A stretch of 64,000 bases of DNA from Brenneria roseae subsp. roseae (GTDB lineage Bacteria; Pseudomonadota; Gammaproteobacteria; Enterobacterales; Enterobacteriaceae): assembly GCF_003115845.1 (NCBI RefSeq), contig NZ_KZ819022.1, forward strand, positions 1-64,000. The letters run 5' to 3'. Positions 11,846 through 44,035 of this stretch are shown piece by piece. The notes under the pieces were generated by a model. It was not told the DNA's origin and ran no database searches. It saw nothing but the letters and a program-made list of their open reading frames with translations. The stretch's first letter is position 1; every line of letters starts with the position of its first letter. Made by a program: the position numbers and the translations under genes.

Positions 11846-11952
11846 GCGGGCCGTTGCTTGGCAATGTTTAAAATCGTGCCCGGCGTTTTTCTATGGCGGG
11901 TTATCCCCACCCCGTGCGGGCCGTCGCAAGCGGCGATTTTTTATACATAAAA
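11846..11952 (+). repeat. Dispersed intergenic repeat, copy A (two units)
   Basis: Unit A1 (11846-11900) reads GCGGGCCGTTGC, then TTGGCAAT, then GTTTAAAATCGTGCCCGGCG, then a T-run and ATGGCGGG. Unit A2 (11916-11952) repeats GCGGGCCGTCGCAAGCGGCG and a T-run. The same order of modules recurs at 16774-16827 (same strand) and, on the opposite strand, at 34644-34737 and 43981-44035. The centre of each unit is a small inverted repeat (here GTTGC/GCAAT and GTCGC/GCGGC). Confidence 0.7.
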
Positions 11953-12054
11953 ACCTGGAGTCGGGGCATTTTGCGCAACAAACCGCCAGTGTGCAACTTT
12001 TATTGATTTGGTTAATGATTAACCGTCGTCGTCATGAGATGTTCAATAATAGAT

Positions 12055-12093
12055 ACGCAAACGGTTTCGTCCAGGGGAAGGATTCTCTATAAT
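12055..12093 (+). promoter_or_regulatory. purL promoter with PurR operator
   Basis: ACGCAAACGGTTTCGT (12055-12070) is a close match to the 16-bp PurR operator. A perfect -10 TATAAT lies at 12088-12093. A 17-bp spacer puts the weak -35 (TTTCGT, 12065-12070) inside the operator, so bound PurR would block RNA polymerase. This matches purine repression of purL in E. coli. Confidence 0.85.
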
Positions 12094-12168
12094 GGCGCGC
12101 GTTTCCCCCCTGTAGCGCCCAACGACTGCACTACAGTCAGTGCATCGAAGACGAGAGAACTTTAGATT

Positions 12169-15100
12169 ATGGAAATACTGCGTGGTTCACCTGCTTTGTC
12201 GGCTTTTCGTATTAATAAATTGCTGGTCCGTTGCAAAGAGCACTTTTTGCCGGTTAGCGATATCTATGCCGAATACGTACATTTCGCCGATGTCAGCGCG
12301 CCGTTGAACAACGATGAACAGGCCAAGCTCACGCGTTTGCTGAAGTATGGCCCCTCTCTCGCTGAACACGAGCCGCAAGGCCGTCTGCTGTTGGTGACAC
12401 CGCGTCCCGGCACCATTTCTCCCTGGTCCTCCAAAGCGACCGATATTGCTCATAACTGTGGATTGAACAAAGTGCTGCGTCTTGAACGTGGTCTGGCGTT
12501 CTATATTCATGCGCCAACCTTGAATGGCGAACAGTGGCGGCAGTTGGGGGATTTGCTGCATGACCGTATGATGGAAAGCGTGTTTGACGACCTGCATCAG
12601 GCGGAGAAGCTTTTTTCCCATCACCAGCCTGCGCCATTAAAACGAATTGAAATCTTGTTACGGGGACGTCAGGCGCTGGAAGAGGCGAATGTTCGTCTGG
12701 GGTTGGCATTGGCGGAAGACGAAATTGATTATCTGCTGGCGGCCTTCAATAAGCTGGGGCGTAACCCGACGGATATTGAGCTGTATATGTTCGCACAGGC
12801 GAACTCCGAGCACTGTCGCCACAAAATTTTTAATGCTGACTGGGTGATTGATGGCGTTGAACAGCCGAAGTCGTTGTTCAAAATGATCAAAAATACCTTT
12901 GAGCATACGCCGGACCATGTGTTATCGGCTTATAAAGATAATGCCGCGGTTATGGAAGGTTCTGCCGTAGGCCGCTTCTATACCGATACGCACGGCAAAT
13001 ATGATTACCATCAGGAAGATGCGCATATCCTGATGAAGGTCGAAACGCATAACCATCCGACGGCCATCTCTCCGTGGCCGGGCGCAGCAACCGGCTCCGG
13101 CGGCGAGATCCGTGATGAAGGCGCCACCGGTCGCGGCTCCAAGCCCAAGGCCGGGCTGGTGGGGTTCTCCGTCTCCAACCTGCGGATACCCGGTTTTATC
13201 CAGCCGTGGGAAGAGGAAGAATTCGGTAAACCGGACCGCATCGTCAGCGCACTGGATATCATGATCGAAGGCCCGCTGGGCGGTGCGGCATTTAATAATG
13301 AGTTTGGGCGTCCTGCGCTGACCGGATATTTCCGTACTTATGAAGAAAGGGTGGACAGCCATAACGGTACTGAGCTGCGCGGCTACCATAAGCCGATCAT
13401 GCTGGCGGGGGGGATCGGTAATATCCGTGCCGATCACGTCAAAAAAGGTGAAATCAGCGTCGGCGCCAAACTGATCGTGCTGGGCGGACCGTCCATGAAT
13501 ATCGGTCTGGGCGGCGGCGCGGCGTCATCAATGGCGTCCGGTCAATCTGATGCCGATCTGGATTTTGCCTCTGTTCAGCGTGATAACCCGGAAATGGAAC
13601 GCCGCTGTCAGGAAGTGATCGATCGCTGCTGGCAGTTGGGCGAAGATAACCCGATATTGTTTATTCACGATGTGGGCGCGGGCGGCTTATCCAACGCGAT
13701 GCCGGAACTGGTCAGTGATGGCGGCCGCGGCGGGCGTTTTGAACTGCGTGACATTCTGAATGACGAACCGGGTATGAGCCCGCTGGAAGTCTGGTGTAAT
13801 GAATCACAAGAGCGTTATGTGCTGGCCGTTGCGCCAGAGCAGCTGGCCCGTTTCGATGAAATCTGTCGCCGTGAGCGCGCACCGTATGCGGTGATCGGTG
13901 AAGCGACAGAGGAATTGCATCTGACGCTGAATGATCGTCATTTCAACAATCAGCCGATTGATCTGCCGCTGGATGTGTTGCTGGGCAAGACGCCGAAAAT
14001 GTTGCGCGATGTTGAGCGTAAGCAGGTAGAAGGCATGCCATTGAAACGTGACAGTATCTATCTGGCCGAAGCGGTGGAACGCGTGCTGCATTTGCCGGTG
14101 GTGGCGGAAAAAACCTTCCTGATCACCATCGGCGACCGCACCGTTACCGGTATGGTCGCGCGTGACCAAATGGTCGGGCCGTGGCAGGTGCCGGTGGCGG
14201 ACTGCGCGGTGACGACCGCAAGTCTGGACAGCTATTACGGCGAAGCGATGTCGATTGGCGAGCGCGCGCCCGTTGCACTGCGCAACTTCGCCGCTTCCGC
14301 TCGTCTGGCGGTGGGCGAAGCCTTGACCAACATTGCTGCGACTCATATTGGTCCGTTGAACCGCGTGAAATTGTCCGCGAACTGGATGGCGGCGGCAGGG
14401 CACCCGGGTGAAGATGCCGGTCTTTATGATGCGGTAAAAGCCATTGGCGAAGAGCTGTGCCCAACGCTGGGACTGACCATTCCTGTCGGCAAGGATTCCA
14501 TGTCGATGAAAACTCGCTGGCAGGAAGGCGAAGAAGAACGCACCATGACATCTCCGATGTCTCTGGTGATCTCCGCGTTTGCCCGCGTGGAAGATGTTCG
14601 TAATACGGTGACTCCGCAACTGCGTACCGGACAGGATAATGCGCTGCTGCTGATCGATTTGGGCGCAGGCCGCAAGGCGCTGGGGGCTACGGCACTGGCC
14701 CAGGTTTATCGCCAACTGGGGCGCGAGACCGCGGATGTCCGTAACGCCACTCAACTGGCCGGGTTCTTTAATGCTATTCAGCAGTTGGTAGCGGATAAAG
14801 CCTTGCTGGCGTACCACGACCGTTCCGACGGTGGCTTGCTGGTGACGCTGGCAGAGATGGCGTTCGCCGGACATTGTGGTGTGAATGTCGATGTCGCCAC
14901 GCAGGGTGAAGATGTACTGGCCACATTGTTTAATGAAGAACTGGGCGCCGTGATTCAGATTCCTGCGTCACGTCGTGCTGAGGTGGAAAGCGTATTGGCC
15001 CTGCATGGTCTGGCGGAGTGTGTTCACTATCTGGGGCAGGCAGAAGAAGGCTCTCGCTTCATGATTAAGCGCGGCGAAGAGGTGGTGTACCACGAGAATC

Positions 15101-16056
15101 GCACCACGATGCGCAACTGGTGGGCTGAAACGACCTGGCAGATGCAGCGCCTGCGTGATAATCCACAGTGTGCCGATCAGGAACATATTGCCAAGCAGGA
15201 TGATAGCGATCCGGGTCTGAATGTGGTGCTGACCTTTGCGCCACAGGAAGATATTGCGGCGCCGTATATTGCGAAGCAGGTTCGTCCCAAAGTCGCCGTA
15301 TTGCGTGAACAGGGCGTCAACTCTCATGTGGAAATGGCGGCGGCTTTTCAGCGTGCGGGCTTTGATGCCATTGATGTTCATATGAGCGATTTGTTGGCAG
15401 GGCGTCGTGATTTGCAGGACTTTCAGGCGCTGGTTGCCTGCGGTGGCTTCTCGTATGGCGACGTGCTCGGCGCGGGTGAAGGCTGGGCGAAATCCATTTT
15501 GTTCAACTCACGCGTGCGTGATGAGTTTGCCGCGTTCTTCCAACGTCCACAAACGTTGGCGCTGGGCGTGTGTAATGGCTGCCAGATGATGTCAAACCTG
15601 CGTGAACTGATCCCGGGCGCCGATCTGTGGCCGCGGTTTGTTCGCAACAAATCAGACCGTTTTGAAGCCCGCTTCAGTCTGGTTAAAGTCGAGAAGAGCC
15701 CGTCGTTGTTCATGAACGATATGGCTGGTTCCCGGATGCCGATTGCGGTTTCCCATGGTGAAGGCCGTGTTGAGGTCCGCGATGATGCTCACCTGAGTGC
15801 GCTGGAACAACACAATCTGGTCGTGCTGCGTTATGTGAATAACTACGGGCAGGAAACCGAAAATTATCCGGCTAACCCGAATGGTTCACCAAACGGCGTT
15901 ACCGCGATAACCAGCGCCAGCGGCCGCGCAACGGTGATGATGCCGCATCCTGAACGTGTATTCCGCACCGTCAGCAATTCCTGGCATCCGGAAGAGTGGG
16001 GCGAGGATAGCCCGTGGATGCGTATGTTCCGTAATGCGCGCAGACAGCTGGGTTGA
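12169..16056 (+). CDS. purL: Phosphoribosylformylglycinamidine synthase
   Basis: This is a 1295-residue single-chain enzyme, the same length as in E. coli. It catalyses the ATP- and glutamine-dependent conversion of FGAR to FGAM in purine synthesis. The order is an N-terminal PurS-like domain, a linker, two AIRS-type ATP-binding repeats (for example [14 protein letters not shown] and [28 protein letters not shown]), then the C-terminal class-I glutaminase. The glutaminase nucleophile is in [13 protein letters not shown] and the His/Glu pair is in PHPERVF near the end. It is transcribed alone, with a PurR-controlled promoter and its own terminator. Confidence 0.97.
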
Positions 16057-16071
16057 TAATCTGTTGATCAT

Positions 16072-16094
16072 AAAAGGGGCTTCGGCCCTTTTTT
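16072..16094 (+). terminator. purL terminator
   Basis: AAAAGGGGC, a TTCG tetraloop and GCCCTTTTTT form a classic intrinsic terminator 16 bp after the purL stop. Confidence 0.9.
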
Positions 16095-16158
16095 GCTATG
16101 CGTCATTAATGGAAGTGATGGTGATTAGTGCGCTATAAAAGTCATCCGCCGGGGAGGT

Positions 16159-16271
16159 TGTCGGGTTTTTGCGACAAACGCAATTCTGGCTGTCGCCAAT
16201 GGGAGACATTTAACACTATGATTTATATGACTCGGGATTAATTGCAGGAAAGCTGTCTGTTTTTGGCGACA
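16159..16271 (+). promoter_or_regulatory. Three GlrR enhancer sites upstream of glmY
   Basis: Three copies of TGTC-N10-GACA, the GlrR recognition sequence, occur at 16159-16176, 16191-16208 and 16254-16271, each with exactly ten bases between the half-sites. They lie about 110-220 bp upstream of the sigma54 -24/-12 element, the normal enhancer position for a sigma54 activator. The activator gene glrR itself is 2.9 kb downstream. Confidence 0.88.
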
Positions 16272-16345
16272 TAAATCGTTATTTTATGGAGGATATTATT
16301 ACCCGCGTCAATTTGTAATAAAAACATGAAGAATAAATGATTAAA

Positions 16346-16395
16346 AATCAATTAATTATGCTTAATATTGAAAACTGGCATGATATCTGCATAAT
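16346..16395 (+). promoter_or_regulatory. glmY promoter: IHF site plus overlapping sigma54 and sigma70 elements
   Basis: AATCAATTAATTA (16346-16358) fits the IHF consensus WATCAANNNNTTR at every position. Just downstream, CTGGCATGATATCTGCAT has GG (16377-16378) and GC (16389-16390) separated by ten bases, the invariant core of a -24/-12 sigma54 promoter. A sigma70-type promoter overlaps it: TTGAAA at 16368-16373 and CATAAT at 16390-16395, spacing 16. Overlapping sigma54/sigma70 promoters with IHF bending are the known arrangement for glmY in enterobacteria. Confidence 0.82.
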
Positions 16396-16400
16396 ATAAC

Positions 16401-16615
16401 GTGTTGCTCATTCAACTGGTTATGATTGCGCTGCTGATTGGCAGATATCTTCGCTCATAACACCCGGAATGACGCCAAAAGAAAGGGTGCCTATCGTCCA
16501 CCAGACCGATAACCGTACGCGAGAGCGGACTTTATCAAACATCGGGCGACACGTTGAGTGAGGCACCGCCTATTCAGTTACGCGGCCAGCGGGAGCGATT
16601 CTTCTGGCCGCGTAA
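16401..16615 (+). ncRNA. glmY: GlmY small RNA (ends approximate)
   Basis: In E. coli, GlmY lies between purL and glrK; it acts by capturing the adaptor RapZ so that its homologue GlmZ stays intact and activates glmS translation. Here a sigma54 promoter would start an RNA at about 16401-16403, in the same place. The first bases contain GCTCATTCA close to the start, as I remember for E. coli GlmY. Internal hairpins are visible: CTGC/GCAG near 16433-16446 and CACCC/GGGTG near 16461-16489. The 3' end may be the perfect 12-bp hairpin TTACGCGGCCAG/CTGGCCGCGTAA (16578-16615), though it has no T-run, and the mature RNA is probably shorter. Identification rests on position and promoter more than on sequence alignment. 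Confidence 0.75.
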
Positions 16616-16773
16616 TGCTAATGTCAGATCGCTTCGCTCTCCTTCTCCGTTAATGAACACACTGATTATTCCTAGTGATACTTTGCTGCGTCTTTTTATC
16701 CAGAACTGGAACGCGTTACGCATCTCATAGAGGGGAACTTTATGATAGCGGATTATTTTTCCCGCCACCTGTT

Positions 16774-16827
16774 GGGCCGCTGCTGCGCAACGTTTAAAAA
16801 CGTTCCTGACGTTTTTATCAGATTCGG
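16774..16827 (+). repeat. Dispersed intergenic repeat, copy C
   Basis: GGGCCGCTGC, TGCGCAAC, GTTTAAAAACGTTCCTGACG and a T-run match copy A1 (11848 onward) module by module. It lies between glmY and glrK, 33 bp before the glrK start codon. Confidence 0.65.
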
Positions 16828-16859
16828 TTAGCATCAAGAGCTGGTTGATAGGTAACGAG

Positions 16860-18296
16860 ATGATTTCTTTGAAACGATGGCGTTTGTTTCCGCGTTCTCT
16901 GCGGCAGCTGGTAATCATGGCTTTCTTGCTGGTGCTGTTACCGTTATTGGTATTGGCTTATCAGGCTTATCAAAGCCTGGATACGCTGAGCGAACAGGCG
17001 GCGGACATTAATCGAACCACATTAACGGACGCGCGGCGCAGCGAGGCGATGACCAGCGTGGCGTTGGCGATGGAACGTAGCTACCGTCAGTACTGTGTTC
17101 TGGACGATCAAACGCTGGCAACGCTGTATCAAAATCAACGTAAACAATACGCTCAAATGCTCGATGCCCATGCGCCAGTCCTGCCGGATCAACGTTATTA
17201 TCAAACGCTGCGTCAGTATTTAACCCAGCTTGAGGATCTGCGCTGTAATAATAGCGGTCCCGATCGGGATGCCTCCGGGCTGTTAGAGCATTTCTCCCAG
17301 GCGAACGGACAGATGGTGCAGATGACCCGCGACGTGGTGTTTTCCCGCGGACAACAACTGCAACAGGCGATTGCTGAGCGTGGCCAGTTCTTTGGCTGGC
17401 AGGCGCTGCTGCTTTTTCTGGTGAGCGTGCTGCTGGTTGTACTGTTTACCCGGATGATTATCGGCCCGGTCAATGGCGTCGAGCGTATGATCAATCGGCT
17501 GGGCGAAGGGCGCTCACTGGGAAATACCAGTACCTTTAAAGGACCCCGTGAAATTCGCTCGCTGGCACAGCGCATCATTTGGTTGAGTGAACGTCTTTCC
17601 TGGTTGGAATCCCAGCGACATGAATTTTTACGACATATCTCCCATGAGCTGAAAACGCCGCTGGCGAGTTTGCGTGAGGGGACCGAGTTGTTGGCCGATG
17701 AGGTTGTGGGACCGCTGACCGCGGATCAAAAAGAAGTGGTTGCCATTCTGGACAGCAGCAGCCGACATCTGCTCCAATTGATCGATCAACTGCTGGACTA
17801 TAACCGCAAGCTTGCCGATGCGCCGACTGAGCTGGAACGGGTAGAGATTGAGGAAGTCGTCGATATTGTCGTGTCGTCCCATAGCTTGCCAGCACGGGCA
17901 AAAATGCTGCATACCGATGTCGAACTGGATATTGAGTACTGCTGGGCTGAAACAACGCTTTTGATGCGCGTGATTGATAATCTCTATTCCAATGCGGTGC
18001 ACTATGGCAGGGAATCCGGTAACATTTGGATCTATAGTCGTCAGATTGGCAATCGGGTACAGATTGATGTTGCGAATAGCGGTACGCCCATTCCTGATGC
18101 TGAGCGCGGCATGATTTTTGAACCTTTTTATCAGGGAAGCCATCAGCGTAAAGGCGCGGTCAAAGGCAGCGGTCTGGGCCTGAGCATCGCCCGGGATTGT
18201 ATTCGCCGCATGCGGGGCGAATTAAGCCTGATATCGGTTGACTATGCTGACGTGTGTTTTCGTATTGAACTGCCCTTAACCTCTGAGAATGAATAA
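16860..18296 (+). CDS. glrK: Sensor histidine kinase GlrK (QseE)
   Basis: This is a 478-residue inner-membrane kinase of the GlrK/QseG/GlrR system, which activates glmY with sigma54. Membrane helices are at about 17-34 and 180-198, flanking a periplasmic sensor region. These are followed by a HAMP segment, a HisKA domain with the phosphorylated His262 in RHISHELKTPLAS, and an ATPase domain with N, G1 (GTPIPDAERG) and G2 (GSGLGLSIA) boxes. I start at ATG 16860 (MISLKRWRLFPRSL) because it aligns with the E. coli start; a TTG at 16845 would add five residues. qseG follows after 3 bp. Confidence 0.94.
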   Translation: MISLKRWRLFPRSLRQLVIMAFLLVLLPLLVLAYQAYQSLDTLSEQAADINRTTLTDARRSEAMTSVALAMERSYRQYCVLDDQTLATLYQNQRKQYAQMLDAHAPVLPDQRYYQTLRQYLTQLEDLRCNNSGPDRDASGLLEHFSQANGQMVQMTRDVVFSRGQQLQQAIAERGQFFGWQALLLFLVSVLLVVLFTRMIIGPVNGVERMINRLGEGRSLGNTSTFKGPREIRSLAQRIIWLSERLSWLESQRHEFLRHISHELKTPLASLREGTELLADEVVGPLTADQKEVVAILDSSSRHLLQLIDQLLDYNRKLADAPTELERVEIEEVVDIVVSSHSLPARAKMLHTDVELDIEYCWAETTLLMRVIDNLYSNAVHYGRESGNIWIYSRQIGNRVQIDVANSGTPIPDAERGMIFEPFYQGSHQRKGAVKGSGLGLSIARDCIRRMRGELSLISVDYADVCFRIELPLTSENE

Positions 18297-18299
18297 ATA

Positions 18300-19151
18300 A
18301 TGAATGTATGGTTTACCCGTCCTTGTTCGCAGCGCATTCCGTCTGATGTGTCTTTGAGCCGAGCGCTAAAGGCCGTGGTGATGTTGTCTCCCTTATTACT
18401 GACGGCGTGCAATAGCTATGTGAACAGCAGCATATCGTCACCGGGCACGGAGAACCCAACGCCGAAAGGGCAGGTGACAGATTATCGCATCGCACAGTGT
18501 GAACACCTGTGGCAAGTGGACGATCGTGAAGCGATGAATAATGCGCTCTACTGGCTGCGCGCGATGGATTGTGCCGGGCGTTTGACCCAATTTCAGGCGC
18601 GTGAAGAAGCGCGAAATCTGGAAAGTGGGAGCTGGGAGAATGCCTTCAAGCGGGGAATTTTACTGGACAATGCAGGGATTACCCAGACAGAACGGCATCA
18701 GGTGCTGCAACAACTCAATTTATATCGACTGGCTTTTCCTGCCGCATTGAGGCCGTTGGTACAAACCTGGCGCGATCGACAAATTCTGTTTTTGGCATTA
18801 TCCGATGAGCGGTTGCGTTACAAACGGTTGCAGGAATCCAGCGACAAGCAATTGGATGCCTTGCGTATCCAGCAAAATCACCTGCAATATCAACTTGAAA
18901 CCACGACCCAGAAATTGGAAAGCCTGACAGATATTGAGCGTCAGCTTTCGTCTCGTAAACAACTGTCGGGTGAGTTGCCTGAAAATGATATCGATCATCG
19001 TGGTAACACCGGCGCCGGTCGTGAGAGTGCTCGCGGGAACGCCGTGCAAAAATCGACGGCCGAGCCGGTAAAGGCAGACGACACTTACGTACCGCCTGTG
19101 GAATCAGAGACCGGCAAAACCAAGACGAAGAAGGAGCCGAATAACCCATGA
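18300..19151 (+). CDS. qseG: Outer-membrane lipoprotein QseG
   Basis: This is a 283-residue lipoprotein that bridges the GlrK/QseE kinase. A hydrophobic segment ends in the lipobox LLTAC, with Cys37 as the lipid-modified residue; the leader is unusually long because of a basic N-terminal extension. The middle contains YWLRAMDCAGRL and SWENAFKRGILL, conserved in E. coli QseG. A coiled coil spans about 165-220 and a low-complexity charged tail follows, longer than in E. coli. The 3' end overlaps glrR by 4 bp (ATGA), so the two are probably translationally coupled. Confidence 0.9.
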   Translation: MNVWFTRPCSQRIPSDVSLSRALKAVVMLSPLLLTACNSYVNSSISSPGTENPTPKGQVTDYRIAQCEHLWQVDDREAMNNALYWLRAMDCAGRLTQFQAREEARNLESGSWENAFKRGILLDNAGITQTERHQVLQQLNLYRLAFPAALRPLVQTWRDRQILFLALSDERLRYKRLQESSDKQLDALRIQQNHLQYQLETTTQKLESLTDIERQLSSRKQLSGELPENDIDHRGNTGAGRESARGNAVQKSTAEPVKADDTYVPPVESETGKTKTKKEPNNP

Positions 19152-20485
19152 CAGCGCGCAAACCGGCGAATTTGCTTCTGGTGGATGATGATCCCAGCTT
19201 ATTGAAGCTGTTGGGAATGCGTTTGACCAGTGAAGGTTTTAGCGTGACGACGGCGGAAAGCGGTCAGGAAGCTCTGAAACTGTTAACCCGGGAACAGTTT
19301 GATCTGGTTATCAGCGATCTTCGTATGGATGAGATGGACGGCATGGCGCTTTTTTCGGAAATCCAGCGCTATCAACCCGGCATGCCGGTCATTATTCTTA
19401 CTGCGCACGGTTCGATTCCTGATGCCGTAGCCGCCACGCAACAAGGTGTGTTCAGCTTTCTTACCAAACCCGTCGATCGTGATGCGTTGTATAAGGCGAT
19501 TGATGAAGCCATGGCGCTATCTGCGCCGGTAGGTGATGAAAGCTGGCGTGAAACCATTGTGACGCGCAGCCCGTTAATGTTGCGTCTGCTGGAGCAGGCC
19601 AAGATGGTGGCTCAGTCAGATGTCAGCGTGTTGATTAACGGCCAGAGCGGAACAGGGAAAGAGATTCTGGCGCAGGCTATCCATGCCGCCAGCCCGCGGG
19701 CGAAAAAAGCCTTTATCGCCATTAACTGCGGCGCGTTACCCGAACCTTTACTTGAGTCTGAACTTTTCGGCCATGCGAAAGGGGCTTTTACGGGGGCCGT
19801 CAGCAGCCGTGAAGGGCTTTTTCAGGCGGCTGAAGGCGGTACGCTGTTTCTGGATGAGATCGGGGATATGCCGCTGTCGTTGCAGGTCAAACTGCTACGT
19901 GTGCTACAGGAGCGCAAAGTTCGTCCGCTGGGCAGTAACCGCGATCTGGATATTGATGTACGGATTATTTCTGCGACTCACCGCGATCTGCCAAAGGCGA
20001 TGGAAAAAGGGGAGTTTCGCGAGGATCTGTACTATCGGTTGAACGTGGTGAATATGAAATTGCCTGCCCTGCATGAGCGGGCAGAGGATATCCCGCTGCT
20101 GGCCAATCATTTGCTGCGTGAGTCGGCGATCCGGCATAAACCGTTTGTACGTACTTTTTCTACGGACGCCATGAAACGGTTGATGACGGCGAGTTGGCCG
20201 GGTAACGTGCGGCAACTGGTTAACGTGATTGAACAGTGTGTGGCTTTGACCAGCGCGCCGGTTATCAGTGAAGCGCTGGTGGAACAGGCGCTGGAAGGTG
20301 AAAACACGGCATTGCCGACGTTTGTCGAGGCTCGTCATCAGTTCGAGTTGAACTATTTGCGCAAACTGTTGCAGATAGCCAAAGGCAATGTCACACAGGC
20401 CGCGCGGATGGCGGGGCGTAACCGGACGGAATTTTATAAACTGTTGGGTCGTCATGAATTGGACGCCAACGATTTTAAAGAATAA
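19148..20485 (+). CDS. glrR: Sigma54-dependent response regulator GlrR (QseF)
   Basis: This is a 445-residue activator with a receiver domain (1-125) carrying the phosphorylated Asp57 in [13 protein letters not shown] central AAA+ domain has Walker A GQSGTGKE at 165-172, the sigma54-contacting GAFTGA loop at 212-217 and Walker [11 protein letters not shown]-terminal Fis-type helix-turn-helix lies at about 410-440. It is phosphorylated by GlrK and activates glmY from the TGTC-N10-GACA sites upstream of glrK. It forms an operon with glrK and qseG and ends 91 bp before glnB. Confidence 0.95.
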
Positions 20486-20567: not shown

Positions 20568-20915
<348 letters not shown>

Positions 20916-33961: not shown

Positions 33962-33971
33962 TAGATGAATA

Positions 33972-34092: not shown

Positions 34093-34587
34093 ATGAGACT
34101 GACATCTAAAGGCCGTTATGCCGTTACCGCCATGCTTGATGTGGCTCTGCATTCCCAGGAAGGCCCGGTTCCGCTGGCTGACATTTCCGAACGTCAGGGC
34201 ATTTCACTTTCCTATCTGGAGCAGCTGTTTTCACGCTTGCGTAAAAACGGCCTGGTTGCCAGCGTGCGTGGTCCGGGTGGCGGTTATTTGCTGGGTAAAG
34301 GTGCTGATGAAATCGCGGTTGGCATGGTGATCTCAGCCGTAGACGAATCTGTTGACGCGACGCGTTGTCAGGGACGTGAAAGCTGCCAGGGCGGCGATCG
34401 CTGCCTGACTCATACCCTGTGGCGCGATCTGAGCGACCGTATTACTGACTTTTTGAACAACATTACGTTGGATGAACTGGTCAATAATAAAGAAGTGCTG
34501 GATGTTGCGGATCGACAGGATGCCGATACACGTCGTACCGCCAATGGCCGTGTTCAGGATACGATCAACGTTAACCTGCGCGCCTAA
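34093..34587 (+). CDS. iscR: Iron-sulfur cluster regulator IscR
   Basis: This is a 164-residue Rrf2-family repressor. A winged helix-turn-helix fills the first 70 residues ([35 protein letters not shown]). The [2Fe-2S] ligands are Cys92, Cys98, Cys104 and His107. With cluster bound it represses its own operon; without it, it controls suf-type targets. I start at ATG 34093 ([15 protein letters not shown]), the conserved start. It leads iscRSUA-hscBA-fdx-iscX. Confidence 0.97.
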
Positions 34588-34609
34588 AATAATAAAGACG
34601 CCGGAACAT

Positions 34610-34790
34610 TTTTAACCCCATAGAGCGGCGGGCTGATCGAGTCCGTCATAAAAAACTGCGGGAGTGATTTTCAATGTTGCGCCGCAACGGTTCTACGGGG
34701 TATAGCAAAATTTCCGGGAGTAATTTTTAATCACGTCAATTTTTTAACAACGTATAGCGTTGGCCCCACGGGGTAAGGGCAATATAGCCC
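34610..34790 (-). repeat. Dispersed intergenic repeat, copy D (composite, between iscR and iscS)
   Basis: On the minus strand, unit D1 (34644-34696) reads CCGTTGCGGCGCAAC, ATTGAAAATCACTCCCG, CAG, a T-run and ATGACG, matching copy B (43981-44035). A second, more diverged unit (about 34697-34790) contains ACCCCGTGGGGCCAACG and TAAAAATTACTCCCGG. Together they fill most of an unusually long iscR-iscS gap of 259 bp. Confidence 0.65.
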
Positions 34791-36061: not shown

Positions 36062-36085
36062 TTCATCAGACCGGGGACGACGATT

Positions 36086-36472: not shown

Positions 36473-36489
36473 CTTACTGAGGTTGTTGT

Positions 36490-36813
36490 ATGTCGATTTC
36501 TTTGAGCGACAGCGCTGCGCAACGAGTAAACGCTTTTCTGACTAACCGGGGCAAAGGCATTGGCCTGCGCCTCGGCGTGCGAACATCCGGTTGTTCCGGT
36601 ATGGCGTATGTGCTGGAATTTGTTGATGACGTAAATGCTGATGACGTGGTATTTGAAGACAAAGGCGTTAAGGTCATTATTGATGGTAAGAGCCTGGTCT
36701 ATCTGGACGGCACCGAACTTGATTTCGTCAAGGAAGGGCTGAACGAAGGCTTCAAATTCAATAACCCTAACGTTTCAAGCGAATGCGGTTGCGGCGAAAG
36801 TTTTAACGTTTGA
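36490..36813 (+). CDS. iscA: Fe-S assembly protein IscA
   Basis: This is a 107-residue A-type carrier with the conserved cysteines Cys35 (TSGCSGM) and Cys99/Cys101 (SECGCGES). It accepts clusters or iron and passes them to target apoproteins. It lies within the isc operon; a 99-bp gap with a strong hairpin separates it from hscB. Confidence 0.97.
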
Positions 36814-36838
36814 CCACTTCCCAGGATATTTCTTTGTC

Positions 36839-36871
36839 CTGTTTCTTCCGGCCAGTTGCCGGGAGAAACAG
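36839..36871 (+). other. iscA-hscB intercistronic hairpin
   Basis: CTGTTTCTTCCGGC (36839-36852) pairs along 14 bp with GCCGGGAGAAACAG (36858-36871), loop of five. No T-run follows, so RNA processing or stabilisation of iscRSUA relative to hscBA-fdx is more likely than full termination. Confidence 0.7.
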
Positions 36872-36912
36872 CGGCCAATAACCGCCAGGACCCGTAAACC
36901 TCAGAGTGCGCT

Positions 36913-37431
36913 ATGGATTACTTTACTTTGTTCGGGCTGCCAGTTCGCTATGATGTGGATGGCAGCCTGCTTGTTTCCCGTTTTCAGGAACTGCAACGAC
37001 AGTTCCATCCGGACCGCTTTGCAAATCAGCCCGAAAGGGAACGCATGCTGGCATTACAGCAGGCCGCAACCATCAATAGTGCCTATCAGGCGCTGAAACA
37101 TCCGCTGAAACGTGCGGAGTATATGTTATCTTTGCACGGTTTCGATTTAAGTAACGAACAACATACGTTACAGGACACCGCTTTTCTGATGGAGCAGCTT
37201 GAGCTGCGTGAAGAGCTGGATGTCATTGCGAGCCGTTCTGATGCCGAAGCGGCGCTGGCTGAGTTTGCCGAGCGGTTGCAGGTGATGCTGGTTAAACGCA
37301 GTGAACAACTGCGTAGCGAACTGGATCACGAGACGTGGGGTGACGCAGCGGATACCGCGCGTAAGCTGCGTTTTTTAGACAAGCTCCGGCAGCAGGTTGA
37401 ACAACTCGAAGAACAATTGCTGGACAGATAG
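36913..37431 (+). CDS. hscB: Co-chaperone HscB
   Basis: This is a 172-residue type III J-protein. The J domain holds the HPD motif at His32-Pro33-Asp34 (RQFHPDRFA), followed by a C-terminal three-helix domain that binds IscU. It stimulates HscA ATPase and delivers cluster-loaded IscU. It lies upstream of hscA with a 73-bp spacer. Confidence 0.97.
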
Positions 37432-37504
37432 GGTTTAATTCGGTTGGGAATGAGCGAGTGCGCTATGCCTCTGTTTTTCCGCCAGCCATTGATGGAAGCT
37501 CAAT

Positions 37505-39355
37505 ATGGCCTTATTACAAATCAGTGAGCCGGGCCTCAGCGCGGCGCCGCATCAGCGGCGCCTGGCGGTAGGCATCGATTTAGGCACCACGCATTCTCTG
37601 GTTGCTACCGTGCGCAGCGGTGAGGCGCAAACGCTGGCCGATCGCGCTGGCCGCGATCTACTGCCGTCCGTTGTCCATTACCGTGCCGAAGGGCATGTGG
37701 TGGGCTGGGACGCGCGTGAAAACGCCGCTCTCGACCTTGCCAACACCGTCAGTTCCGTCAAGCGTATGATGGGGCGTTCGCTGGCGGATATTCAGCAGCG
37801 CTACCCACATTTGCCCTACCAATACCGCGCCAGCGATAACGGTTTGCCGTTGATTCAGACGAATGCCGGCGAGCTGAATCCGGTGCAAGTGTCGGCCGAT
37901 ATTCTGTCGGCGCTGGCACAGCGTGCGCAGGAAGCGTTAGGCGGCATGCCTGATGGCGTGGTGATTACGGTCCCGGCCTATTTCGACGATGCGCAGCGTC
38001 AGGGTACCAAAGATGCCGCTCGATTGGCCGGGCTGCATGTACTGCGCTTGCTCAATGAGCCGACTGCCGCAGCGATTGCCTATGGTCTGGATTCCGGTCA
38101 GGAAGGGGTTATCGCCGTTTACGATCTGGGCGGCGGAACCTTTGATATTTCTGTTCTGCGTCTGAGCCGTGGCGTGTTTGAAGTGCTGGCGACAGGCGGT
38201 GATTCCGCGCTGGGCGGCGATGATTTCGATCATCTGTTGGTGGAGTGGCTGCGTGAGCAGGCCGGTATTACCGCACGTGACGATCATCAGTTACAGCATG
38301 CGTTACGCGAAGCCGCGATACAAACCAAGATTGCATTAAGTACGGCGGATTCCGCCCATATTGATGTTGCTGGCTGGCAAGGGGTGATTACCCGGAGCCA
38401 GTTCAATACGCTGATTGCCTCACTGGTGAAACGCACGCTGCTGGCGTGTCGTCGTACGCTGAAAGATGCGGGCGTTACGCCGGAGGAGGTGCAGGAAGTC
38501 GTCATGGTCGGCGGTTCGACGCGTGTTCCGCTGATTCGCGAGCAGGTTGGCGAATTTTTTGGCAGAGTGCCGCTGACCTCCATCGATCCAGACAAGGTGG
38601 TGGCGGTTGGCGCGGCTATCCAGGCGGACATTCTGGTCGGCAATAAGCCGGACAGTGAAATGTTGCTGCTGGATGTTATTCCGCTTTCCCTGGGGCTGGA
38701 AACCATGGGGGGGCTGGTTGAAAAAATCATACCGCGCAATACCACCATCCCGGTCGCCAGAGCTCAGGAATTCACTACCTTTAAAGACGGCCAGAGCGGG
38801 ATGATGATCCACGTTCTGCAAGGTGAACGCGAGCTGGTGCAGGATTGCCGTTCACTTGGCCGTTTTACATTACGCGGTCTTCCTCCGTTACCCGCCGGCG
38901 GCGCACATATCCGGGTGACCTTTCAGGTGGATGCCGATGGTCTGCTCAGCGTTACCGCGATGGAGAAATCGACCGGCGTCGAAGCCTCCATACAGGTCAA
39001 GCCGTCCTATGGGCTGAGTGATACTGAAATTGCGTCCATGATTAAAGACTCCATGCTGAATGCACAGGAAGATGTGGGCGCCAGAATGCTGGCGGAACAG
39101 AAAGTGGAGGCTGCACGCGTGCTGGAAAGTTTGCAGGGCGCGCTGGCAGCGGATGCAGATTTGCTGACCGATAATGAAAAGGCGGCAATTGCCGAAGCAT
39201 CCGAGCACCTGCGGCAAGCCGCTCAGGGAACAGCGGCATCGGCGATTGAAACCGCAATAAAAATATTAGATCAACAAACCCAGGAATTTGCCGCCCGCCG
39301 GATGGATGCCTCTATTCGTCGCGCGCTGGCGGGACATTCCGTGGACGAGGTGTAA
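37505..39355 (+). CDS. hscA: Hsp70-class chaperone HscA
   Basis: This is a 616-residue specialised Hsp70 that uses ATP to release clusters from IscU. The phosphate-binding loop [14 protein letters not shown] is near residues 24-37, with [12 protein letters not shown] and [13 protein letters not shown] further on. The C-terminal half is the substrate-binding domain. Position GTT-H-S has His where E. coli HscA, as I recall it, has Asn; this is a minor variation in the nucleotide pocket. The next gene fdx starts 2 bp after the stop. Confidence 0.97.
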
Positions 39356-39357
39356 AC

Positions 39358-39693
39358 ATGCCTAAGATTGTCTTTCTGCCTCATCAGGATTTATGTCCTG
39401 AAGGGGCGGTTTTGGAAGCAGAGCGTGGAGAAAGCATTCTGAATGTCGCGCTGCGTAACGGTATTGAGATAGAACATGCCTGCGAGAAATCCTGTGCTTG
39501 TACGACCTGTCATTGCATCGTTCGTGAAGGATTCGATTCTCTGGCGGAAAGTACGGAAGATGAAGATGACATGCTGGATAAAGCCTGGGGACTGGAACCG
39601 GAGAGCCGGTTAGGGTGTCAGGCTCGTATCGCCAATGAAGATCTGGTGGTAGAGATCCCGCGTTATACGATTAACCACGCTCGCGAACATTAA
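39358..39693 (+). CDS. fdx: [2Fe-2S] ferredoxin of the ISC system
   Basis: This is a 111-residue adrenodoxin-type ferredoxin. Cluster ligands are Cys42, Cys48, Cys51 and Cys87, in [10 protein letters not shown] and RLGCQAR; an additional Cys46 is typical of the group. It supplies electrons for sulfur reduction on IscU. Confidence 0.97.
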
Positions 39694-39709
39694 TTCCTGG
39701 AGCCTTGTT

Positions 39710-39910
39710 ATGGGATTGAAATGGACGGACAGCCGTGCGATCGGCGAAGCGCTTTACGATACATTTCCCGATCTCGATCCAAAAACGGTGCGTTTTACTG
39801 ATATGCATCAGTGGATCTGCGATCTGGCGGAGTTTGATGACGCGCCGGATGCATCCAATGAAAAAATTCTGGAAGCGATCCTGCTGGTCTGGTTAGATGA
39901 AGCAGAATAG
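39710..39910 (+). CDS. iscX: Fe-S assembly protein IscX
   Basis: This is a 66-residue acidic protein that binds IscS and modulates sulfur transfer, possibly as an iron adaptor. Family landmarks are [17 protein letters not shown], the [11 protein letters not shown] segment and [13 protein letters not shown]. It is the last gene of the isc operon before the terminator at 39923. Confidence 0.96.
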
Positions 39911-39922
39911 TTATTGATATCA

Positions 39923-39955
39923 CGGGCTGCCTTTTTTGGCGGCCCGCTTTATTTT
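39923..39955 (+). terminator. isc operon terminator
   Basis: CGGGCTGCC and GGCGGCCCG form a 9-bp stem with a T-loop, followed by CTTTATTTT. It lies 13 bp after the iscX stop; pepB begins 58 bp further on. Confidence 0.8.
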
Positions 39956-40013
39956 AGCGTCATGGCGCGCATCGGCGCGAATGGCAAATATGAAAAGCAT
40001 CTGGAGCAGAATT

Positions 40014-41312
40014 ATGACAAGCGAAGCTATGCTGATTTCACTCTCCAACCAACCTGCTGATGCGCGCTGGGGAGAGAAAGCGCCATTAAGCGTGAATGAG
40101 TCCGGTTTTACTATTCACCTGAATGGGACGACGTCTCCGTTGGCGACGATTCAACGTGCGGCGCGTAAAATTGACGGTCAGGGCATCAAGCACGTCAAAC
40201 TGGCCGGCGCTGGCTGGGATTTGGAAAACAGCTGGACATTCTGGCAAGGCTATCGTGCGCCGAAAGGGCAGCGGACGGTGGAATGGCCTGAGCTGAATGC
40301 CGCTGACAGGAAAGAACTGGACGATCGCCTCAAGATCGTTGACTGGGTACGGGATACGATCAATCTGCCGGCGGAAGATCTGGGGCCAGAGCAGTTGGCT
40401 ACGCGCGCGATTGATCTGTTGTGCGATGTTGCCTGCGACGCCATCAATTATCGGATCACCAAGGGTGACGATCTGCGCACGCAAAACTATGCCGGTATTT
40501 ATACGGTAGGTCGTGGGTCCGAGCGTTCTCCGGTACTGCTGGCGCTGGATTACAACCCGACGGGTAATCCAGACGCGCCGGTATTTGCCTGCCTGGTCGG
40601 TAAAGGCATTACCTTTGATACCGGCGGCTATAGCCTGAAATCCAGCGGCTTCATGGATTCCATGAAATCGGATATGGGCGGCGCGGCAACCGTGGTGGGC
40701 GCTCTTGCGCTGGCGGCCTCCCGTGGATTGAACAAGCGGGTGAAGCTGTACCTGTGTTGTGCGGATAATATGGTCAGCGGCAATGCGTTCAAGCTGGGCG
40801 ACATTATCCGTTATCGCAACGGCAAGAGCGTTGAAGTGATGAATACCGATGCGGAAGGGCGTCTGGTGCTGGCTGATGGCCTGATTGATGCCTCGGAACA
40901 GCATCCGCAGTGGATCATTGATTGCGCGACGTTGACGGGTGCGGCAAAAACCGCGTTGGGTAATGATTATCATGCTGTGTTCAGTTTTGATGATCAGCTG
41001 GTGACGGCATTGCAGGACAGCGCGAAGCAGGAAGGTGAACCGTTCTGGCGTCTGCCGCTGGAGGAGTTCCACCGCAGCCAGCTTCCTTCCAGCTTTGCGG
41101 ATTTGAATAACATCGCTGGGGCGGCATACAGCGCAGGCGCCAGTACGGCGGCGGCGTTTCTGTCGCACTTTGTGGAGCATTATCAGCAAGGCTGGCTGCA
41201 CATTGATTGCTCCGCCACCTATCGTAAAGGGGCGGTGGAACAATGGTCAACGGGGGCGACCGGACTGGGCGTTCGTACACTGGCGAATCTGCTGCTGAGC
41301 AAGGCTGAATAA
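40014..41312 (+). CDS. pepB: Peptidase B (M17 leucyl aminopeptidase family)
   Basis: This is a 432-residue two-metal aminopeptidase. The M17 core is intact: [15 protein letters not shown] with the metal-binding lysine and aspartate, KSDMGGAAT, and the signature [15 protein letters not shown]. The ATG at 40014 ([23 protein letters not shown]) matches the E. coli start, and the frame upstream is non-coding. It degrades peptides in the cytoplasm. It lies downstream of the isc operon as in E. coli. Confidence 0.95.
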
Positions 41313-41362
41313 TCAGGCTTCAGTAAGCGATATTCTCGATTTACAGCATGTGCCGATAAGCG

Positions 41363-41388
41363 AAACCGGGTCAGATACCCGGTTTTTA
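41363..41388 (+). terminator. pepB terminator
   Basis: AAACCGGGT and ACCCGGTTT make a 9-bp stem followed by TT; sseB begins 19 bp later, so readthrough is possible. Confidence 0.75.
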
Positions 41389-41406
41389 ACGCGGTTAAGG
41401 AGCGTT

Positions 41407-42201
41407 ATGGATTTTTCACCACAAAATAAACTGGAAGAGGTGCTGGTTCTGGCCGCAACCGAGCCCGCGCATCGTCCTGAGTTTTTCAGCGAACTGATGG
41501 AAGCGACGGTATTTGTACTCGGCAGCAGTGATGAAAGCGACGCGCCCGGTGAAAAGATCCTGCATGCAGGCAGTAACGTGCAGATTCAACATTGGGAGAA
41601 GGCCAATGGTTCTTCAGCCATTCCCTTTTTCTCTTCGCTGGAAGCATTGCAGCAAGTGATTACCGAAGAGCAGTCTTTTCTGGCGCTACCGGTTCGTTCA
41701 CTGTTCGAGATTACGCTGGGCGCCACGCTGTTTCTTAATCCCAGACTGCCGTATGGAAAAGAGTTTTTGCCGCAGGAAGTGGAGCACTTGCTGTCCGGTG
41801 AAGGAAACGGATTTGTCCAGCAGCGGGTTATCGAAGAAGATACGCAGGTCGTGATTGGCCAGCCGGCAGAAATGCCGGTGCAGATGATTGATTCTCTGAC
41901 TCAGCTGTTTACCAAGTATCGGCACGTGCGCCGTGCGTTTCTGGCCCAAATCCACGAACCAAATGAAAAAGAACCGCATTTGCTCATCGGGATCGAAGCC
42001 GATCAGGATGTGGAAGATATTATCCGTGCCGCCGGCAGCGTCGCCAGCGATACGTTACCGGATGAGCGTCCAGTCGATCTCTGTGTGGTTAAGGAAAATG
42101 AACCCGGCATCAGCCACTATATGATCAAACACACTACGCCGTTTTATGAACGTAAGTGGGGCAGTTTTTTGCGGGATTTCAAGAGTACCGGTCATGCCTG
42201 A
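41407..42201 (+). CDS. sseB: Enhanced serine sensitivity protein SseB
   Basis: This is a 264-residue protein with the SseB N-terminal domain (LEEVLVLAATEPAHRPEFFSELMEATVFV) and C-terminal domain (GIEADQDVEDIIRAAGSVASDTLP). Overexpression of the E. coli homologue makes cells serine-sensitive; the biochemical role is not established. The ATG at 41407 has AAGGAG in place. A longer frame from 41350 overlaps the pepB terminator and is unlikely. Confidence 0.93.
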   Translation: MDFSPQNKLEEVLVLAATEPAHRPEFFSELMEATVFVLGSSDESDAPGEKILHAGSNVQIQHWEKANGSSAIPFFSSLEALQQVITEEQSFLALPVRSLFEITLGATLFLNPRLPYGKEFLPQEVEHLLSGEGNGFVQQRVIEEDTQVVIGQPAEMPVQMIDSLTQLFTKYRHVRRAFLAQIHEPNEKEPHLLIGIEADQDVEDIIRAAGSVASDTLPDERPVDLCVVKENEPGISHYMIKHTTPFYERKWGSFLRDFKSTGHA

Positions 42202-42295
42202 TTAGGGCATCGGCGCAGCGGTGGGTTATGCATCCACCGTTGTCGCCCGTCGGTTATCCATGATCTGCCCTTGAACCTTCACGGCAGTCGCGGGA

Positions 42296-43165
42296 TCAAT
42301 CAAGCGTAATTGGCACGTCGTTGCGGCTGCCCCAATCGCTCCATGCGCCGTCGTAAAGCGTCACATTGGGGACGTTCAATACGCGTAGCGCCAGAATGAC
42401 AACGCAAGCCGTAACGCCGGAGCCACAGCTGGCAACGATAGGACGGCTGAAATCCACCCCGTGCTTATGCAGAATTGTCGCGAGCTCGGCGTTCGGTTTC
42501 AGCGCACCGTTGGCGACCAGATCGCCCCAGGGCACATTCAGGCTGCCGGGGATATGTCCACGATGCAGGCCGGGGCGAGGTTCGTCCACTTCACCGTTAA
42601 AACGGGCTGCGGGGCGGGCATCGACAATCTGCGCGGATTTATCACGGCTGATTGCCATCACGTCGTCACGCTGACGAATAGCCGTTTCATTCAGTTTAGC
42701 TTCGAAAACGGCAGGCGCCCGCTCGACATTGCCTTGCTCCAGAGGCCGGTGTTGACTTTTCCAGCCGGCCAACCCGCCGGTGAGAATTGAGATCTGCGTG
42801 ACGCCAAAGGTGTGCAGCATCCACCAGGCGCGCGGTGCGGAAAACAGGTTGCCTTCATCGTAGATAATAATGTGTTGCTGATGACTGACGCCCAGCTTAC
42901 TCATTGCGCGGGAAAAATCATCGCTGTCGGGCATCATATGCGGCAGGTCGGTGCGGTGATCGGACAAGACTTCAATATCAAAAAATACCGCGCCGGGTAA
43001 ATGACCGGCACGGTATTCGGCGTTGATATCGCGGGTTGTTTCACCCGGCGGCAGCATGCGGGCGTCAAGGAGAACAATCGTGCTGTCGTTAAGGTGCTCG
43101 GCAAGCCAGGTTGAGGAAACAAACCATTCGTTGGAAACAAACAACCCAGAAGAAGATGCTGACAT
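42296..43165 (-). CDS. sseA: 3-mercaptopyruvate sulfurtransferase
   Basis: This is a 289-residue enzyme with two rhodanese domains. The active loop CGSGVTA at 247-253, with Cys247, is characteristic of mercaptopyruvate rather than thiosulfate sulfurtransferases. It moves sulfane sulfur from 3-mercaptopyruvate to thiols or cyanide. I start at ATG 43165, where GGGGGAG gives a strong ribosome site; the upstream ATG at 43180 lacks one. It converges with sseB. Confidence 0.95.
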   Translation of the reverse strand: MSASSSGLFVSNEWFVSSTWLAEHLNDSTIVLLDARMLPPGETTRDINAEYRAGHLPGAVFFDIEVLSDHRTDLPHMMPDSDDFSRAMSKLGVSHQQHIIIYDEGNLFSAPRAWWMLHTFGVTQISILTGGLAGWKSQHRPLEQGNVERAPAVFEAKLNETAIRQRDDVMAISRDKSAQIVDARPAARFNGEVDEPRPGLHRGHIPGSLNVPWGDLVANGALKPNAELATILHKHGVDFSRPIVASCGSGVTACVVILALRVLNVPNVTLYDGAWSDWGSRNDVPITLD

Positions 43166-43538
43166 AACTCCCCCACGCAAAGGCCGATGGATTCAGCCAC
43201 AAGGTGAAATAATGGATTTATTGTCAGCGATTTCTGCTGTTCCGACAAGCTCGTACTTACTGCCGTCCGATATCGTTCTTACCGGCCTGTCGTCGCTGTG
43301 GCCGGCATTCACGGGTTGCTTATCTCGTTCAGCATCGCTTTCGCGTACTGTGTGGCTGTTATCAATCCTGGTGATATCGGAAAGAAGGTAGGTCAAAAGA
43401 TAATATTTTTTTAATAAAATGTTATTTCGCCGGTAGGCAACCGGGTTGGCTCCCCCTATAATCTGCGCCACTTTCACTGGCTGGGATTATAATACCCCCA
43501 ATCCGGCTGCTATCTGATAGTTGTTTAATGAGGTCAAT
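43166..43538. other. sseA-ndk intergenic region
   Basis: This 373-bp gap occupies the place where E. coli carries yfhM (alpha-2-macroglobulin) and pbpC. No homology to either is visible. A short plus-strand frame (43212-43391, 59 codons, starting MDLLSAISAVPTSSYLL) has no recognisable family and may be chance. A TATAAT at 43457-43462 is the likely ndk -10, with a poor -35. Confidence 0.55.
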
Positions 43539-43967
43539 ATGACGGTAGAACGTACCTTTTCCATCGTAAAACCCAATGCTGTCGCCAAGAATGCTATTGG
43601 CGCCATTTATGCCCGTTTTGAAAGCGCGGGCTTTAAAATTGTTGCCGCCAAAATGCTGCGTCTGACTCGTGAACAGGCTGAAGGCTTTTATGCCGAGCAT
43701 CAGGGCAAACCGTTTTTTGACGGTTTGGTCGAGTTCATGATGTCCGGTCCGATCATGGTACAGGTACTGGAAGGTGAAAATGCCGTTCAGCGTAACCGTG
43801 ATATCATGGGCGCGACCAACCCGGCGAATGCGCTGGCGGGTACGCTGCGTGCCGATTATGCCGACAGCTTCACCGAAAACGCCGTGCATGGCTCTGATTC
43901 CATCGAGTCCGCCGAGCGTGAAATCGCCTATTTCTTCAGCGCTGACGAAATTTGCCCGCGTAACTAA
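43539..43967 (+). CDS. ndk: Nucleoside diphosphate kinase
   Basis: This is a 142-residue enzyme that balances NTP pools by phosphate transfer through the catalytic His117 (ENAVHGSDS). The family signature [20 protein letters not shown] is intact. The ATG at 43539 follows GAGGT; an earlier in-frame ATG at 43521 overlaps the ribosome site and is not used. It is followed by an intergenic repeat and a terminator. Confidence 0.97.
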
Positions 43968-43980
43968 GTCTTGTGCGTTG

Positions 43981-44035
43981 ATAACCGGGCGTGATTTTCA
44001 ACGTCGCTTGCGACGGCCCGCCATAAAAAATGCGG
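43981..44035 (-). repeat. Dispersed intergenic repeat, copy B
   Basis: On the minus strand: a T-run, ATGGCGGGCCGTCGC, AAGCGACGTTGAAAATCACG and CCCGG. The central GTCGC-AA-GCGAC is a perfect inverted repeat. It is the best-conserved unit of the family also seen at 11846, 16774 and 34644. Confidence 0.7.

Follow-up and report, generated by a model that had tools for sequence, protein, structure and literature searches.

A dispersed, tandem-forming hairpin repeat of Brenneria related to the RrB module of enterobacterial rRNA and tRNA operons

The repeat in the window and in the source genome

We analyzed a stretch of 64,000 nucleotides from Brenneria roseae subsp. roseae (positions 1 to 64,000 of contig NZ_KZ819022.1, assembly GCF_003115845.1; hereafter the window), in which four sites carry copies of one small hairpin repeat: site A between divergent genes, site B between the small RNA (sRNA) gene GlmY and the gene that follows it, site C between genes taken for iscR and iscS, and site D. 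A sequence-only reading of this DNA had described four loci sharing a linear order of motifs around one inverted repeat, whose stem varies and mostly still pairs. Direct reading of the window confirmed the four loci and their stems. These loci are not chance similarities; they are worn copies of a larger repeat family, best read as the RrB/tRNA-linked repeat (TLR) module in a new form: dispersed, terminator-linked and tandem-forming.

The repeat unit is about 73-76 bp long and often tandem, and carries three covarying hairpins where a single hairpin core had been proposed. Read forward, it consists of hairpin H3, a CCC-NNN-GGG mini-hairpin, hairpin H1 (CGTCGC-AA-GCGACG), TTG, hairpin H2 (AAAAACGC-TCCCG-GCGTTTTTTT) with its T-tract, and ATG, followed by the H3 of the next unit. 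H3 stems are of the types GGCGGGC-TATCCT-GCCCGCC, GCCCC-ATCCCT-GGGGC and GTCTC-ATCCCT-GAGAC, plus many variants. The stem first noticed corresponds to H1. The motif order described with it is present, but its GTTKAAAATCRC..CCCGG..T-run portion is the second hairpin, H2, and not a linear motif; likewise ATGGCGGG, taken for a shared motif, belongs to the following unit, whose H3 it begins, and does not occur at every locus. In intact copies, H2 and the T-run have by their sequence the form of an intrinsic terminator (a GC-rich hairpin, then a U-run), a form that is worn or lost at sites A, C and D.

A covariance model (R1; 48 positions and 14 pairs, covering H1 and H2 only) was built from 31 copies of the source genome. 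Sites A, B, C and D scored 54.4, 52.2, 43.7 and 36.1 bits, respectively (with full scoring, E values for the window ranged from 6.9e-14 to 1.4e-8); three of these scores are partly by construction, because the copies concerned are among the 31 training rows, and only the copy at site D (43976-44020) lies outside the training set. At site A, on the forward strand, the H3 of the first unit (11824..11839, GCCCC-ATCCCT-GGGGC type, from reading and alignment) precedes a core at 11847..11895 with the end of the mini-hairpin, an H1 with a wobble pair (GTTGC/GCAAT, 11853-11865) and a worn H2. A truncated second unit follows at 11896..11945, with a worn H3, an H1 of GTCGC/GCGGC and an H2 reduced to its 3' arm and T-tract (19.9 bits at 11917-11942). 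Site B holds one worn unit on the forward strand (16741..16821), the model match lying at 16773-16821, with a one-mismatch stem (GCTGC/GCAAC) and AAAAACGTTCCTGACGTTTTT as its H2. The match to the GlmY sRNA (RF00128, 136.5 bits) lies upstream of it, at 16402-16572 (+). Site C, on the reverse strand, extends over 34610-34790 and includes the stems GTTGC/GCAAC and CAACG/CGTTG. Its main unit lies at 34646..34694, a second worn unit at 34695..34790 has H2 at 34707-34730 (22.1 bits for the H2 part) with the CAACG/CGTTG H1 before it, and 34610..34645 is, by reading of the sequence and with no model match, a remnant of a further unit (an H3-like stretch and a T-tract). Site D, also on the reverse strand, is a truncated unit (43976..44035) with a T-tract and ATGG, an intact H1 (GTCGC/GCGAC) and no 3' arm of H2.

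The gene names at site C come from gene context and from an Rfam match. This match, to IscS1_thermometer (RF02783; window 34488-34679, forward strand, 62 bits with a cut-off of 58), overlaps the site, and the worn repeat may alter or mimic this leader. It was the only Rfam family found over the repeat in the window at cut-off.

We then compared pairing in the stems with shuffled and displaced controls. In the 31 training copies, 96.3% of the cells were paired, a level reached in none of 500 shuffles (structures slid along the alignment, 36-63%), and 35 cells had changed on both sides versus 8.4 in shuffles. The compensatory stem change suspected from the window is therefore significant at the level of the family. 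A second alignment, A4, drew on four bacterial families; its 32 units, selected because their H3 was visible, comprised 13 of the own genus and 19 of other genera. There, 99.4% of the cells were paired (slid controls, 39-52%), double changes occurred in 13 of 17 pairs, and 68 cells had changed doubly versus 12.4 in shuffles. Covariation of the stems is thus clear across the family. Selection on the window copies themselves was not supported: none of them folds clearly better than its shuffles (z-scores of -0.86, -1.50, +0.16 and +0.10, versus -2.59 to -4.47 for six copies from elsewhere folded together), and their orthologous sites are often empty.

Far more than four copies are present in the source genome. 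All per-genome counts given here are lower bounds, since at most 150 candidates per genome were scored for the source genome, its genus and the genus of another genome, G311, at most 51 in a further genome search, and at most 20 and 16 for the phylum and class samples, respectively. An initial sequence search with window positions 11800-12000 returned 24 matches; with R1, the 4.5-Mb source genome gave at least 136 matches at E ≤ 1 and at least 114 at E ≤ 1e-4, and each of the nine genomes of the genus gave at least 29 to at least 114 at the latter threshold. The scan of the source genome and its relatives therefore yielded more than 100 copies, not four at chance level, in agreement with a dispersed family. 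In 330,608 bases (the window and the stretches around matches, about 7% of the genome), we found 118 copies at E ≤ 0.001 in 93 sites, a set that leaves aside the weakest matches of the E ≤ 1 list.

The tandem arrangement seen in the window was also found elsewhere in the genome, in head-to-tail units: 75 sites had a single unit, 13 had two, 3 had three and 2 had four (18 of the 93 with 2-4). Near-identical tandem units were present in the fetched source-genome stretches L009 and L010 (three each), L011 (two) and L117 (four). In L023, an N and a shortened unit lie inside the array (about 2936-2971); this array is possibly collapsed in the assembly, in which case its unit numbers are minima. Ordinary terminators share an A-tract, a GC stem and a T-tract, and could in principle resemble one another by chance or convergence. 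Against this stand a 48-position model reaching E values as low as 3.9e-18, near-identical 73-bp tandem units, the shared H1 and H3, and a phylum sample in which 282 of 299 genomes gave no match at E ≤ 1e-6 under strict filters, so that we give this explanation next to no weight.

Relation to RrB and the tRNA-linked repeats

The repeat, initially not recognized as ERIC, BIME/REP or an insertion sequence, is a relative of the RrA/RrB/RrF (TLR) module of enterobacterial rRNA and tRNA operons. R1 matched the T1-T2 spacer of rrnB in E. coli MG1655 with 48 bits (E 3.4e-12 in 45 kb), on the strand opposite 5S. According to Stenum et al. (2021, PMC8144298), the E. coli operons rrnA, rrnB and rrnD encode the sRNAs RrA, RrB and RrF between their two terminators, RrB is a TLR, and conservation of RrB-type sequences downstream of 5S spans at least 31 species in 12 genera, with Brenneria in the structure set. 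The hairpin order and the reverse-strand loops are common to these sRNAs and the repeat. Reverse-strand folds of six copies were of RrB type in all but L009, which folds otherwise around H1 and H2. By model match, alignment A4, pair counts and reverse-strand folds, the repeat has the sequence and fold of the RrB core. In contrast to RrA/RrB/RrF, the source genome has its copies, more than 100, dispersed behind ordinary genes, some of them in tandem, and more often presenting the other strand to a co-directional upstream gene. When the rrn spacer of another genome served as query, E. coli genomes had a median of four matching places each.

Copies in the classical positions also exist in the source genome. 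One (L143) lies antisense behind 5S rRNA, and another (L138) lies behind tRNA-Lys and adjoins an RtT match (RF00391, 80.6 bits). This match contains the H3 of L138, and the 3' end of the tRNA recurs at its close. With respect to the placement of TLRs, behind tRNA or rRNA genes and with an 18-19 bp repeat of the 3' end, L138 has both features and L143 the location. This placement was not found for the dispersed majority nor, as far as they were read, for the four window copies. Only 2 of the 65 source-genome loci scanned had tRNA genes, one of them 1.3 kb away; apart from few exceptions, the dispersed copies scanned, unlike TLRs, do not lie beside tRNA genes. In other enterobacterial genera, 5 of the 15 loci scanned adjoin 5S rRNA or tRNA genes; in four of these five, the copy lies on the opposite strand. 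Of the 11 class-level loci fetched, 9 have tRNA genes no more than about 1.5 kb away, and in each of the nine the copy is on the opposite strand.

Rfam gave no clear identity for the unit. No match over the repeat was found in 11 loci at E ≤ 0.5, and an assignment to a known Rfam family was not supported, as none covers the unit at its cut-off and RtT adjoins the L138 module. The Aggregatibacter sRNA AaHKsRNA22 (RF02902) aligns to L138:1548-1640 (+) with corresponding hairpins (26 bits, E 0.0045), below its gathering score of 39.8, and neither the rrnB nor the L226 stretch matched it at E ≤ 1. From this alignment, taken as a lead only, AaHKsRNA22 may belong to the same family.

As reported in PMC8144298, RrB binds CsrA in vitro (apparent KD about 100 nM), the shift was lost once GGA motifs 1, 2 and 5 were changed, and TLRs had no known function before the work on RrB. 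By our own count on the rrnB sequence, GGA motifs 2 and 5 of RrB are the reverse-strand loops of H2 and H3, a forward TCC in a loop being GGA on the reverse strand. We therefore examined the loops of copies outside the genus, some rows of which are units of one array and not independent. Among 32 copies (two partial matches, L064:1041 and L068:1080, and one duplicate, L225, excluded), the H3 loop had TCC in 27 of 28 hairpins formed by script and GGA in none, or TCC in 25 of 26 once two resident hairpins (L067, L224) were removed by eye, against a background of 8% TCC and 10% GGA. The H2 loop had TCC in 31 of 31. A second set of 27 copies, drawn from 31 matches of which four short or weak ones were excluded, had TCC in 20 of 23 formed H3 and 23 of 23 formed H2. 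The H2 counts lean to TCC because R1 contains the H2 loop; H3 lies outside R1. In the source genome, TCC was kept in 52 of 76 H3 loops (GGA in 7) and 65 of 92 H2 loops. Overall, outside the genus the stems are free and the loops held, and the loop constraint is relaxed in the dispersed copies.

These loops invite the idea of a genome-wide decoy network, in which reverse-strand transcripts of the arrays titrate or recruit CsrA/RsmA and selection keeps hairpins and GGA loops. It would account for loops that are nearly invariant outside the genus while stems change, for the identity of the H2 and H3 loops with two of the three motifs altered in the RrB mutant that does not bind CsrA (PMC8144298), and for the orientation of tRNA- and 5S-linked copies, most of which would have their GGA strand in the operon transcript. 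However, TCC loops are only partly kept in the source genome, and they are lost from H2 and H3 both in the six-unit array of the congener G123 and in the four-unit array in L023; a CsrB/RsmB-type sponge RNA, by comparison, has a promoter of its own and many GGA hairpins per transcript. In addition, the GGA strand opposes the upstream gene at 28 of 41 sites between co-directional genes, and deletion of the E. coli genes changed known CsrA phenotypes only modestly (PMC8144298). Because of the GGA-less arrays and the orientation bias, we consider a CsrA decoy unlikely as the driver of the dispersed arrays.

Placement behind T-tracts and turnover at orthologous sites

By simple open reading frame (ORF) calls, 82 of the 93 sites fall outside ORFs; most of the remaining 11 overlap ORF starts that are over-extended. 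After exclusion of these 11 and of 16 sites with a far or missing neighbor, the 66 remaining sites (both neighbors within 600 bp) had both genes forward in 28 cases, both reverse in 13, divergent in 14 and convergent in 11. On the 5' side, a run of at least four T at -40..-20 was present at 53 of the 93 sites versus 8% at control positions 300-500 bp away. Of the 66 arrays with a T-run in a wider test, 25 had a strong hairpin directly before it (dinucleotide shuffles predict 1.7), as in GCCGACTG-ATT-CAGTCGGC-TTTTTT-ATG; the mirrored test on the 3' side found a strong hairpin at 0 of 35 arrays. Where the hairpin score was at least 14 (27 arrays), the upstream gene read towards the element in 20, away from it in 4 and was unclassed in 3. 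Units therefore keep one polarity relative to the T-tract before them, which often belongs to a resident terminator-like hairpin. The unit's own end is a target of the same kind, which would account for the head-to-tail arrays.

We also compared seven sites, A to G, across nine genomes of the genus (the source genome, G114 and G119-G125), site E being compared without G123 and G124 and site F being read fully in the source genome and G123. Orthologous sites held from none to six units. Site A is cleanly empty in G125 (..GGCCGTTTTTTATACGAAAAG..), has one unit in G114, G124, G120 and G121, one unit plus a partial one in G122 and the source genome, two units in G123 and three in G119. Sites B and C are worn in every genome with anything there. 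Site D has no unit in G114, G124, G119, G122 and G125, one in G120 and two in G121, and is worn in the source genome and G123. At site E, the repeat lies directly 3' of a terminator-like hairpin in G119 and G121, and site F has one unit in the source genome versus six in G123. Site G is empty in G119-G122, with one unit in G123, G124, G114 and G125 and four in the source genome. Two genomes have GTCGTACACGAC as the H1 of this site and three have GTCGCACGCGAC; the paired positions probably changed in place, or possibly by conversion from another copy.

Such a distribution bears on the possibility that the repeat is kept by the host as a terminator cassette and spread by conversion, as a strong double terminator or insulator. 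The terminator form of H2 and its T-tract would fit, as would the placement behind terminator-like hairpins and the state of site B, where H2 was recognizable by eye in 6 of 8 congeners and H1 and H3 in fewer. Nevertheless, the corresponding site has no unit in several congeners, a good H2 has been lost at window sites A, C and D, and such a role leaves the conserved H1, H3 and loops and the copies between divergent genes unexplained, which makes host-selected cassettes an unlikely account.

A REP/BIME-type element or miniature inverted-repeat transposable element moved by a resident transposase, of RAYT or insertion sequence origin, would agree with the size, the intergenic spread and the palindromes, and REP/BIME with RAYT are, like the repeat, high-copy short intergenic palindromes (PMC3733652). 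An ERIC-like end within 130 bp was found at 5 of the 93 sites, on both sides at L152. The repeat differs from REP/BIME by several hairpins per unit, head-to-tail arrays and no constant Y1_Tnp partner. Inspection found no GTAG or CGTC tag outside a stem; CGTC lies inside H1, where the pair varies (UA:17 CG:10 AU:3 GC:1 in the A4 counts). The linked RAYT-type transposase that had been suggested as a check was not found: in a search limited to this family, Y1_Tnp (PF01797) had no match in 4 of the 9 genus genomes, which carry at least 68-82 copies. Movement by such a transposase is thus very improbable.

Other enterobacterial intergenic repeats, ERIC and YPAL/RU-2, resemble the repeat in folding as RNA. 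No ERIC-like end was found within 130 bp at 88 of the 93 sites. The five sites with such ends are L152, on both sides, and L151, L164, L166 and L169, on one side; L152 looks, by its sequence, like an ERIC-type element with the repeat module as interior. YPAL, of about 168 bp with internal inverted repeats as described in PMC2229807 and PMC2267715, is set apart by that length and structure. A more distant likeness is found in a Gram-positive host. There, the pneumococcal BOX elements are small modular hairpin repeats with a variable number of internal tandem units.

Origin and spread of the repeat

Taken together, these results lead us to read the repeat as a non-autonomous dispersed element, derived from or sharing a source with the RrB/TLR module, linked to terminators and placed behind T-tracts, a reading to which we give a probability of about two in three. 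Several observations weigh against it. Only half of the within-array core pairs are near-identical (17 of 34 at least 95% alike; mean 0.851 versus 0.647 between arrays), and because the H3 type at site A differs among species, part of the covariation is unit replacement and not change in place. Outside the genus, the 5S-linked copy L073 lies on the same strand as 5S, and the E. coli rttR/tyrT stretch (L194), another TLR, had no R1 match at E ≤ 0.01, so that the module is not in all TLRs. The co-directional orientation bias is weak (28 versus 13, p 0.028), and a terminator has no evident use in the 14 arrays between divergent genes. No strong hairpin precedes the T-run in 41 of 66 arrays, and 27 of the 93 arrays have no T-run in the tested place and fall outside the target test. 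Finally, the dispersed copies may either derive from rRNA/tRNA-linked ones or share a common source with them.

Under this reading, we infer that new units would arise immediately 3' of a terminator's T-tract, and each unit, ending in a terminator-like hairpin and T-tract, would become the next target, so that head-to-tail arrays would lengthen, whether through slippage, unequal crossing over or renewed insertion. In the forward direction, H2 and the U-tract are predicted to act as an extra, probably bidirectional, intrinsic terminator; landing behind a terminator would then be nearly harmless, because the unit itself adds one. In the reverse direction, by analogy with RrB, an RNA with the RrB-type fold would offer GGA in the H2 and H3 loops to CsrA/RsmA, possibly a function kept by rRNA/tRNA-linked members and relaxed in dispersed ones. 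Single copies, as in the window, would decay, and the fold would be kept by copies still multiplying or in use.

For the movement itself, our preferred guess, held with low confidence, is template switching or recombination at the hairpin and T-tract, with no dedicated enzyme. We tried a resident reverse transcriptase (RT) as constant mover and rejected it, since PF00078 had no match in G119, G120 and G122, which carry at least 73, 80 and 112 copies, respectively. Neither Y1_Tnp nor a PF00078 RT is therefore a constant partner, copy-rich genomes lacking matches to them. A bolder and quite improbable extension would see in these elements transposase-free, sRNA-like mobile RNA modules that are present in several gammaproteobacterial families and land where the DNA encodes the 3' end of an RNA. 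The targets would be the 3' ends of tRNA and 5S for TLRs, with 18-19 bp repeated, and terminator U-tracts in this genus. This common kind of target would point to a step at the RNA level, in which a terminator-ended RNA of ~73 nt would be copied into the place following another transcript's 3' end, the CsrA-binding loops being kept as the module's original trade.

The analysis joins the repeat of this genus, the rrnB T1-T2 spacer and the RtT-linked and tRNA-linked copies as one module whose stems covary and whose loops are fixed. In the literature searched, from which many subscription papers, key older ones included, were outside the scope, we found no description of such a dispersed repeat. 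With filled and empty sites in nine genomes, this lineage opens its mode of travel, and its upkeep for CsrA or for termination, to direct test.

Beyond the genus, 20 of 368 other genomes of the class sample had matches at E ≤ 1e-6. Two other families also have tandem arrays, their units spaced 74-76 bp apart: f10 (G311 and G381, both read directly) and f24 (G314). In G311's genus, 6 of the 40 genomes had matches. In two f10 genomes, an ORF ends inside the H2 part of the array (L226, ORF 280-1437 and repeat at 1426-1474; L228, ORF 43-1512 and repeat at 1501-1549), placing the stop codon within the repeat and the GGA strand in sense. In G781, from another family, at least eight matches scored identically, several of them near contig ends, as expected for copies beside a multicopy operon. 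Within the genus, L088 and L091 represent one region on two contigs of similar length of G125 (C7 and C6), a duplication that is probably an assembly redundancy. Outside the class, G200, G236, G305, G326, G344 and G383 (f32, g180) had one or two matches each, with best E values of 1.6e-7 to 4.8e-10, which may be a distant branch of the family or look-alikes.

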